NCBI GenBank assembly: GCA_021775875.1
Contig: JAJFHA010000011.1
Location: 138,178-202,177 of the forward strand
From: Hyphomicrobiales bacterium
GTDB taxonomy: Bacteria; Pseudomonadota; Alphaproteobacteria; Rhizobiales; NORP267
Length of the DNA: 64,000 bases
Direction: 5' to 3'
Below the pieces are notes generated by a model. The model searched no databases, was not told where the DNA came from, and saw only the letters and a list, made by a program, of their open reading frames with translations. Of the stretch, positions 60,130 through 62,488 are shown in pieces (the stretch's first letter is position 1; the number at the start of each line of letters is the position of its first letter). A program made the translations under genes and the position numbers.

Positions 60130-60534
60130 ATGATTGGTCGATTGAACCATGTGGCAATTGCGGTATCTGATATAGCAGCTGCTGCTAAAATCTATTCGGG
60201 TACCCTTGGCGCAAAAGTAACAGCCCCTGTGCCGCAGCCAGATCACGGGGTTACAACTGTATTTGTGGAACTCCCCAATACAAAGATCGAGTTGCTGGAG
60301 CCGCTTGGTGAAAATTCACCAATTGCGGCATTTCTGGAGCGCAATACCAGCGGCGGCGTCCATCATCTTTGTTATGAAGTGGAAGATATTCTGGTGGCAC
60401 GTGACAAACTGGTTGCCGAAGGCGCCCGGGTTCTGGGTGATGGCAATCCTAAAATGGGTGCCCACAACAAGCTCATATTGTTTTTGCACCCAAAAGACTT
60501 TTGCGGCACCCTTGTTGAACTCGAACAGGTTTGA
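60130..60534 (+). CDS. mce: Methylmalonyl-CoA epimerase
   Basis: This 134-residue vicinal-oxygen-chelate enzyme interconverts (R)- and (S)-methylmalonyl-CoA in propionyl-CoA breakdown. It starts IGRLNHVAIAVSDIAAAAKIY with the metal-ligand His, then has TTVFVELPNTKIELLEP, SGGVHHLCYEVEDI with the second His ligand, and the C-terminal LVELEQ with the Glu ligand. It lies 21 bp after rnj and 9 bp before the DUF1467 gene. Confidence 0.94.
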   Translation: MIGRLNHVAIAVSDIAAAAKIYSGTLGAKVTAPVPQPDHGVTTVFVELPNTKIELLEPLGENSPIAAFLERNTSGGVHHLCYEVEDILVARDKLVAEGARVLGDGNPKMGAHNKLILFLHPKDFCGTLVELEQV

Positions 60535-60543
60535 GGTAGCGTC

Positions 60544-60813
60544 ATGTCCCTGACCAGCTCTCTGGCTATATTTTTCATTATCTGGTGGGTGGTTCTGTTT
60601 GCCGTTCTCCCTTGGGGCGTTCGTACCCAGGCAGAAGACGGTGAGGTGGTTCCAGGCTCAGCACCAAGCGCCCCGTCGCGCCCTCAAATGAAGCGCAAAA
60701 TTTTCACCACCACAATCATAGCGGCAATTATTTTCACGATATTCTATACAGCCCGGGTCAATGGATGGGTTTCGCTGGATTCGTTTCCGTTCATGCCTAC
60801 TCGGAATTTTTAG
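60544..60813 (+). CDS. DUF1467 family membrane protein
   Basis: The predicted 89-residue protein has two membrane helices (about 5-24 and 53-70). The first helix ends in the family motif WWVVLFAVLPWGVRTQ and is followed by an acidic, Pro-rich loop (EDGEVVPGSAPSAPSRP). DUF1467 genes sit between mce and proS in many alphaproteobacteria; the function is unknown. It is co-transcribed with mce. No plus-strand terminator is obvious after it. Confidence 0.85.
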   Translation: MSLTSSLAIFFIIWWVVLFAVLPWGVRTQAEDGEVVPGSAPSAPSRPQMKRKIFTTTIIAAIIFTIFYTARVNGWVSLDSFPFMPTRNF

Positions 60814-60815
60814 GT

Positions 60816-60842
60816 AAAAAAAGCGAGACCCGAAAGCCTCGC
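60816..60842 (-). terminator. Orphan minus-strand intrinsic terminator
   Basis: The stem is 60823-60829 with 60836-60842 (7 bp including one G-U, 6-base loop), followed by seven U. It starts 3 bp beyond the DUF1467 stop on the opposite strand. In the plus direction the stem has an A-C mismatch and no T tract, so it serves only minus-strand transcription. Confidence 0.75.
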
Positions 60843-60951
60843 CAAATCCAGTTTTCAGGATATTACCTGAAAATTCCGGCCCTCCCTAAACCTGAGCCGT
60901 AGCATATTGATTATGCTTTTAAGCTGACATTCAAGAACGTCAGCCCTCGAT
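60816..60951 (-). ncRNA. Candidate small RNA (structured, with its own intrinsic terminator)
   Basis: The 349 bp gap 60814-61162 contains no gene on either strand. Reading minus, a 7 bp stem (GCGAGGC with GTCTCGC, loop TTTCGG) is followed directly by seven T, a canonical terminator, yet no minus-strand gene lies upstream. Before it are a TTTTCAGG/CCTGAAAA hairpin (60852-60873), hairpins AGCATA/TATGCT and GCTGAC/GTCAGC (near 60901-60945), and a TTCCGGC/GCCGGAA pairing that encloses the last two. ATGACA (60986-60981), a 17 bp spacer and TAGGTT (60963-60958) form a fair promoter. Predicted RNA length is about 135 bases. The RNA family is unknown; 6S RNA should be tested. Confidence 0.5.
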
Positions 60952-61162
60952 TGCCGGAACCTAGAGCATCGCCACCAATTTGTCATCATTTTCCTGAACA
61001 TGGTATTGTTTTGTTACCCGATTGTAACGCGTTCTGGTATGGCACTACAGGAAACCCATGTGATATGGATCATTCTGGCCGCTTCGTGCCGCCGATTCAT
61101 GCTACCGATTTTTGAATGAAGCCTTGAGCGGAAAGCAAACCTGACCTGATGAGCCAGACCTT

Positions 61163-62488
61163 ATGAGATTGACTGATTATTTTTTGCCAACCCTGAGGGA
61201 AAATCCCAAGGAGGCGGAGATCGTATCGCACACGCTAATGTTGCGGGCGGGAATGGTGCGCCAGGAAACGGCGGGTATTTATTCGTGGCTGCCGCTTGGC
61301 TTTAATGTCATGAAAAAAATCGAGCAGATTGTCCGCGAAGAACAGAACCGGGCAGGCTTTGTTGAAATATTGATGCCGACCATCCAGCCTGCTGATCTCT
61401 GGAAATCCAGCGGCCGTTATGAAGATTACGGCAAGGAGATGCTGCGGATCCGGGATCGCCACGACCGCGAAATGTTGTACGGGCCAACCAACGAAGAGAT
61501 GATCACCGAGATATCCAAGATGGGCGTGCGCTCGTACCGCGACCTGCCGACACGGCTTTATCATATCCAGTGGAAATTCCGCGACGAAGTGCGCCCCCGG
61601 TTCGGGGTCATGCGGGGTCGGGAATTCCTGATGAAGGATGCCTATTCCATAGATATCGATAAAGAGGCAGCACGCCGCTCCTATTATCGCCAATTCATTG
61701 CCTATCTTCGCACATTCGAGCGGATGGGCCTCAAGGCGATTCCGATGGCTGCCGATAGCGGACCGATTGGCGGCGATATGAGCCACGAATTTGTCATCCT
61801 GGCCGATACCGGTGAGAGCGCGGTTTTTTGTGACCGCGACCTGGTGGACATGCCGGTGCCTGCTGACGATATTGGTTATGACGATGATCTGGAAGCGGTT
61901 GCCGCTGCTTGGACATCGAAATACGCCGCAACCGATGAAAAGCACGATGAGGCAAAGTTCGTGGCGGACGTTCCTGAAGAGCGCCGCGTCAGCGCACGCG
62001 GCATCGAGGTCGGCCATATTTTCTATTTCGGGACAAAATATTCTGACGCCATGGGCGCGTCTGTCCAAAATGCAGACGGCAAGGCGACGCCGTTTGAAAT
62101 GGGCTCATACGGTATCGGTGTATCCCGCCTGGTGGCTGGTATTATCGAGGCCAATCACGATGAAGCCGGAATCATCTGGCCAGAATCCGTCGCGCCATTC
62201 CATGTGGGTCTCATCAACTTGAAGGTCGGTGATAGCGAGACCGATGAAGCCTGCAACGCATTTTACCAGAATCTTGAAAATGCCGGTGTCGATGTTCTTT
62301 ATGACGACACCGATGAGCGCGCCGGCGGCAAGTTCAAAAACATGGATTTGATCGGGTTGCCGTGGCAATTGATTGTCGGGCCACGCGGTATTAAATCCGG
62401 CGAAGTTGAAGTGAAAAACCGCGCCAGTGGCGAACGCTTTAACCTAAGTCCGGATGCCGCCCTCAACATGCTCACATCCCGGAAATGA
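61163..62488 (+). CDS. proS: Prolyl-tRNA synthetase (short alphaproteobacterial type)
   Basis: This 441-residue class II synthetase charges tRNA-Pro. Motif 1 region is [18 protein letters not shown] near residue 31, motif 2 is [25 protein letters not shown] near residue 138, and motif 3 is [14 protein letters not shown] near residue 312, followed by the anticodon-binding domain. E. coli ProRS is about 570 residues with an editing insertion between motifs 2 and 3; that insertion is missing, as in other alphaproteobacterial and mitochondrial-type ProRS, so Ala-tRNA-Pro clearance must depend on a free-standing editing protein. lolC starts 4 bp after the stop. Confidence 0.95.

Follow-up and report, generated by a model that had tools for sequence, protein, structure and literature searches.

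A probable ar9-like small RNA gene upstream of proS in a Hyphomicrobiales bacterium, most likely an RNA sponge of MmgR

An sRNA encoded directly upstream of proS was observed experimentally in S. meliloti, in the arrangement SMc01933 < sRNA < proS >, and it is known under the names Smr9C/SmrC9, sra32 and SmelC289 (PMC2573895, PMC2245857, PMC2780559, PMC3927594). Its length was given as 149 nt (PMC2780559) and its promoter as gaTGAC-n17-CTA.AT, and Northern blots of A. tumefaciens and R. etli revealed sra32 there too (PMC2245857); in S. meliloti, SmrC9 co-purifies with Hfq (PMC2848018). The RNA has been in print as ar9/Smr9C since 2007, and the published passages available on it offer predicted targets only, with no established function and no link to MmgR.

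The second system of relevance is CrfA of Caulobacter crescentus (CCNA_R0093, TSS 3,781,500), a G/A-rich loop of which binds the seed of the alphaR8 sRNAs SisA-D and inactivates them with Hfq (PMC12559287). As for MmgR, a direct base-pairing interaction "has not been identified" according to a passage of the same source (PMC12559287).

This article describes an element located in the gap before proS of a Hyphomicrobiales bacterium, taking as window the whole stretch of 64,000 nucleotides that was analysed (contig JAJFHA010000011.1). The gap very probably encodes an independently transcribed sRNA, and we estimate a probability of roughly three in four that it is a stand-alone ar9-like sRNA gene whose product acts, most likely, as an RNA sponge of the MmgR/alphaR8 RNA of the same genome.

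Anatomy of the gap between DUF1467 and proS

The initial annotation had described an orphan minus-strand terminator with seven U, preceded by hairpins and a promoter-like pair. The terminator is present (GCGAGGC-TTTCGG-GTCTCGC inside 60843-60822, then seven U at 60822-60816), its end (60816) lies 3 nt from the DUF1467 stop codon, and no credible minus-strand gene feeding it was seen upstream, the only ORFs being antisense to annotated-type genes (Table 1). Its stem had first been read as 7 bp with a 6-nt loop; the scan calls the same terminator with 9 pairs and a 4-nt loop. The -35/-10-like pair also stands, GATGAC-17-CTAGGT having the layout reported for S. meliloti sra32 (PMC2245857), and the 5' end of the sRNA, at about 60951, was placed from the promoter spacing (+/-3 nt). 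Two structural details had to be revised: four hairpins, not three, precede the terminator in the predicted fold, and the long-range pairing TTCCGGC/GCCGGAA is not supported, its first arm overlapping the -10 box and the leader and differing in both congeners.

Table 1. Features of the DUF1467-proS gap and its neighbours (positions in the window)
Feature	Position	Strand	Basis or remark
DUF1467 gene	60544..60813	+	convergent neighbour; PF07330
Rho-independent terminator and U-run	60816..60843	-	sequence; two-sided pair-keeping changes in 50 relatives
Predicted sRNA transcript, ~134-137 nt	60816..60951	-	fold z-score (60814-60950) and held-out covariance-model match 60816-60913
Predicted hairpin 4	60852..60873	-	minimum-energy fold
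Predicted hairpin 3	60877..60899	-	minimum-energy fold; 11-nt loop = middle of core
Core CGGCTCAGGTTTAGGGAGGG, predicted MmgR/alphaR8 binding site	60880..60899	-	kept in homologous gaps; 20-nt pairing with own MmgR
Predicted hairpin 2	60901..60917	-	minimum-energy fold
Predicted hairpin 1	60922..60945	-	minimum-energy fold
-10-like hexamer CTAGGT	60959..60964	-	sequence; spacer to -35 = 17 bp
-35-like hexamer GATGAC	60982..60987	-	sequence; TGAC-type box in most homologous gaps and in sra32 (PMC2245857)
proS	61163..62488	+	divergent neighbour; PF00587 and PF03129

The RNA folds at -51.9 kcal/mol against -33.1 kcal/mol in dinucleotide shuffles (sd 3.3; z -5.8), and none of 200 shuffles folded as well. 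Simple pattern scans by themselves would not single out the element, whereas the RNA as a whole is beyond chance: the bare scan for terminator-like sites gave 2 against 1.3 expected, and a promoter scan with an E. coli-type consensus left the minus-strand promoter unflagged. Chance hairpins or an untranscribed relic would agree with these near-chance counts, and are nevertheless hardly credible in view of the z-score, the intact promoter, core and terminator, a compensated change at position -6 of the duplex described below, and the 93% identity of the gap in one congener (G002; query 2-347 of 349), a second congener being patchily alike. In the terminator, 7 of 8 pairs show two-sided pair-keeping changes in 50 relatives' sequences. 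RNAalifold on six own-family sequences returned no structure beyond the terminator and a core stem of 3 bp, and hairpins 1, 2 and 4 rest on single-sequence folds.

The earlier suggestion of a 6S-like regulator was based on size and intergenic setting only. No RF00013 match was obtained at E 10 in 60500-61200, and the 6S gene of the genome lies elsewhere (G000:C16:2038-2193, minus strand, 50.7 bits), which makes 6S RNA or a 6S-like function extremely improbable here. The Rfam search of the gap, proposed at the same time, returned neither 6S nor ar9 at E 10; the weak matches to ncS025, sbrA and SorX, all below their own thresholds and over the terminator region, were discarded. A small protein was likewise considered and is not supported: an ATG-initiated ORF of at least 10 codons follows the core in 5 of 63 elements (13 of 63 with any start), and the window RNA holds one closed ORF of 16 codons, which no SD-like sequence precedes, as well as an open TTG frame that runs into the terminator.

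Conservation of the element and its relation to ar9

The DUF1467 gene is present in 139 of the 150 genomes of the order. The downstream sides of its loci were fetched and proS was found in 92 of 140, yielding 89 usable gaps; in the 48 loci set aside, the fetched stretch contained no proS, and three gaps of 7 nt stand outside the 89. The core pattern GT[CT]NNGGGAGG occurs on the minus strand of 64 of these gaps and on the plus strand of 4, against a mean of 0.45 and at most 3 in 100 rounds of shuffling, and by this pattern it is absent from 25/89. Most core-bearing loci have a TGAC-type -35 box about 70-130 nt upstream of the core and a terminator about 50-145 nt downstream; by the rules used, the box was not found in nine of them and the terminator in two. 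With the terminator set aside, no part of the aligned RNA is conserved as well as the core, and the intervening segments vary in length and sequence. In family f4, with genomes of 1.3-1.4 Mb, the core is absent and the gap measures 7 nt (G058, G094, G127) or 101 nt (G008). The independent intergenic sRNA of about 135 nt that had been proposed for this site is supported by the fold z-score, the promoter and terminator, the core in 64/89 gaps and the S. meliloti counterpart.

The Rfam family ar9 (RF02343) we take to be the proS-side S. meliloti sRNA, an identity borne out by position beside DUF1467: the best ar9 match per genome (E<=0.0062) was compared with DUF1467 in 50 cases, 38 of which are situated at most 3 kb downstream of a DUF1467 gene on the opposite strand; the other 12 are not. 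The ar9 model has no match at E<=10 in 60500-61200 (cut-off 45 bits) and none at E<=1 in the genome under stricter filters. The core pattern is found in all 30 ar9 matches with loci, the window element carrying a variant, CAGGTTTAGGGAGGG instead of AAGTCTTGGGAGGA, and we infer from the published passages that the core is the fully conserved hairpin of PMC3927594.

A covariance model (R1) was built from 50 elements of other families with the own family held out, 14 of the 64 elements with core and terminator being left out, 6 as own family and 8 by linker length. Its base pairs are those of the terminator only, and its specificity lies mostly in the core sequence plus terminator. R1 finds the window element with 23 bits and an E of 2.5e-5 in 78.7 kb (7.6 bits for the next match in the window), and the element is the best match in the genome (E 0.001); the second best, at 20.7 bits, is the antisense strand of the genome's MmgR gene. 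Under stricter filters, a class-wide scan with R1 left the window element unreported. Since the Rfam ar9 model misses the element and R1 finds it, we call it a diverged ar9-like homologue, as judged by position, architecture and core, and not a member of ar9 by Rfam score; the original statement that no family matched is superseded to that extent.

The element resembles ar9 in its place upstream of proS on the opposite strand, in its layout of a sigma-70 promoter, in the 5' stem-loop, core and Rho-independent terminator, and in its similar length. It differs in a sequence too diverged for the Rfam model, in a length of ~134-137 nt against 149 nt in S. meliloti (PMC2780559), in a shorter core-terminator linker (49-51 nt, as compared to 71-72 nt for the ar9 relatives that score strongest), and in the neighbour on the other side, which in S. 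meliloti is SMc01933, on the same strand as the sRNA.

Beyond the order, 78 of the 240 class genomes give an R1 match at E 0.01, many such matches being partial and confined to the terminator; among 20 loci with longer matches, judged by reading, the core is present in 18, a DUF1467 match in 16 and proS in 7. A 19-base core pattern of the window's own genus has 10 matches in contigs of 84,980 species (own genome possibly left out), namely in two congeners, both of them metagenome assemblies, five Magnetospirillum/Caenispirillum records and three other alphaproteobacterial assemblies, and in each case proS is found no more than ~2.2 kb away, on the strand opposite the core.

Complementarity and co-variation with MmgR

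The seed of the MmgR/alphaR8/suhB RNA (RF00519), which is encoded at another locus and is distinct from the window RNA, is the reverse complement of the core; the commonest MmgR seed in the order, GGGCGUUUCCUCCCUAGACUUGGGCCG, is the reverse complement of CGGCCCAAGUCUAGGGAGGAAACGCCC (core plus flanks). RF00519 matches occur at E 1 in 147 of the 150 genomes (115 over the cut-off); the three without a match (G008, G058, G127, all of family f4) lack the element as well, though these are small genomes, and G094 has a weak match. The MmgR gene of the window genome (G000:C18:106333-106417) scores 40.2 bits, just below the Rfam cut-off of 41, and lies between FGase and an inositol-monophosphatase gene, FGase being the neighbour described for most alphaR8 genes (PMC12559287). 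Pairing of the core with this MmgR is predicted over 20 nt with one mismatch (U-U) and three G-U pairs, and the core ranks first among 21,322 window stretches as own-MmgR site, at -44.7 kcal/mol, the next-best site elsewhere in the window being close in energy (-40.6). The transcript, described at first as antisense to nothing, is so in cis; in trans, its core is antisense to the MmgR/alphaR8 seed.

A second alphaR8-like RNA with an interrupted seed (CCTCCCTGTTAACT...CTTGGGCCG) was detected at G000:C16:16914-16992 (minus strand, locus L354, 34.4 bits). It is alike in G001, G002, G007 and G014, and a related form occurs in family f43.

Co-variation was assessed in 55 genomes of 27 families with both RNAs. 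In the other nine of the 64 core genomes the own alphaR8 seed was not found by rule (G002, G007, G014, G047, G081, G087, G120, G149, G150); a single change affects the seed of the alphaR8 RNA in G087 and G150, and the seed is interrupted in G002, G007, G014, G047 and G149. Cognate duplexes average -43.3 kcal/mol, against -21.8 for mononucleotide-shuffled cores. When partners were swapped between the 27 families, the true mean of -43.55 kcal/mol, against -40.98 (sd 0.47), was reached in none of 10,000 permutations, and with the SD-like part left out the true mean (-21.98 against -19.66) was likewise never reached. In the order controls the counts were 25/5,000 with reversed seeds, 79/5,000 with reversed cores and 4,252/5,000 with reverse-complemented seeds, as compared to 0/5,000 in the true orientation. 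Part of the permutation signal is explained by shared base composition, because the reversed-seed and reversed-core controls also rank high.

The same comparison in 16 genomes of 13 families from other orders, picked by R1 score and not by MmgR, gave -54.3 kcal/mol for true pairs against -47.1 (sd 1.1), reached in 0/10,000 permutations with or without the SD-like part; the reversed-seed control was not significant in these 13 families (1,456/10,000) and gave 18/5,000 with both sets pooled. G265 was left out, its sole match over the Rfam cut-off being the antisense of its own element. Along a tree of ProS with 54 of these 55 genomes of the order (one was lost), nine same-branch double changes were counted against 2.9 by the simple product of change counts, seven of them from Watson-Crick to Watson-Crick. 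Pair-table examples are U:A to A:U at -2 (family f6), C:G to U:A at -3 (G029) and, in the window's genus, the lineage-specific compensated change of A:U to G:C at -6; uncompensated cases are G opposite A at -2 in 4/55 genomes (G003, G005, G056, G125) and two adjacent mismatches in G023. As read from the two sets of sequences, the core with its flanks and the MmgR seed change in step.

Position -1, next to GGG (window 60887), is a recurrent mismatch within an otherwise near-constant duplex: MmgR has U in 55/55 genomes, facing U in 30/55.

The behaviour of the flanks bears on two other explanations. The first is a conventional trans-acting sRNA whose direct targets are mRNAs and whose fit to MmgR is secondary, which would be in keeping with the prediction of fliM and SMc01800 as sra32 targets (PMC2245857); we judge it unlikely, as mRNA targets would not explain why the core's flanks, outside the SD-like GGGAGGA, co-vary with MmgR. 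The second is an RNA that mimics Shine-Dalgarno sequences in general and titrates the ribosome or any anti-SD sRNA (AbcR1/2, NfeR1), which would find support in the complementarity of GGGAGGA to the AbcR aSD1 CUCCUCCC (PMC8844928). It appears very unlikely, as AbcR (ar15) is over the Rfam cut-off in 5 and at E 0.01 in 21 of the 150 genomes, in contrast to the distribution of MmgR given above. AbcR as main partner was dropped for this patchiness and for flanks that do not follow the core, the flank match having been measured for MmgR and judged by eye for AbcR.

The proposed sponge and its significance

Gene anatomy, conservation, complementarity and co-variation are established at the level of sequence, and from them we infer the following course of events in vivo. 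The sRNA would be transcribed here from its own sigma-70-type promoter, and the hairpin-3 region with its 20-nt core would anneal, probably on Hfq, to the seed of MmgR, the presumed controlled partner. The duplex would mask the anti-Shine-Dalgarno seed, decay of MmgR may follow, and the mRNAs repressed by MmgR, presumably for transport and carbon metabolism, would be freed. MmgR is reported to limit PHB. On the simplest reading the window RNA would sequester MmgR and thereby release the mRNAs that MmgR represses, and a sponge of MmgR, as known for CrfA, appears the best-supported mechanism. The type of loop and the partner family are common to both systems: CrfA pairs through a G/A-rich stem-loop with the alphaR8 seed UUUCCUCCCU (PMC12559287), and the window RNA has a loop complementary to the alphaR8 seed of its own genome over a run of 20 nt. 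The two RNAs are likened by loop and partner family, the Hfq dependence being that of CrfA in Caulobacter.

Base pairing is symmetric and would also fit the opposite direction of control, i.e. MmgR as the regulator that removes the window RNA, the real work of the latter being done through another part of it; in Caulobacter, overexpression of SisA also lowers CrfA (PMC12559287). We regard this direction as rather unlikely, since no second effector site as conserved as the core is seen in the aligned RNA, the terminator aside.

The origin of the proposed sponge of MmgR may be sought in alphaR8 itself. Of 16 other-order loci, 7 give a match of RF00519, the Rfam model for MmgR, on the strand antisense to the core, with up to 45.8 bits. 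In some genomes the match extends over the full length, a hint that an inverted copy of an alphaR8 gene may have been the start of the sponge. It is tentatively proposed, as a possibility of clearly lower standing than the sponge function, that both RNAs form an ancient class-wide sponge-target couple kept complementary by co-evolution since before the split of the alphaproteobacterial orders, with CrfA as a relocated or reinvented version. In two loci of other alphaproteobacterial orders (L241 and L249), it is the antisense strand of the proS-side RNA that scores above the RF00519 cut-off; such matches are a likely source of false MmgR annotations.

A link between MmgR and SmelC289, SMc06412, smrC9 or sra32 was not found in titles and abstract openings among the open-literature matches listed; in the literature covered, PMC7143759 was the one paper to name both MmgR and any of these, SmelC289 occurring there once, in a table. 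If the pairing is real, ar9/Smr9C and MmgR would both gain a partner in one step, and regulation through an RNA-RNA toggle would be a widespread alphaproteobacterial trait and not a peculiarity of Caulobacter. The sponge reading is directly testable in cultivated strains.
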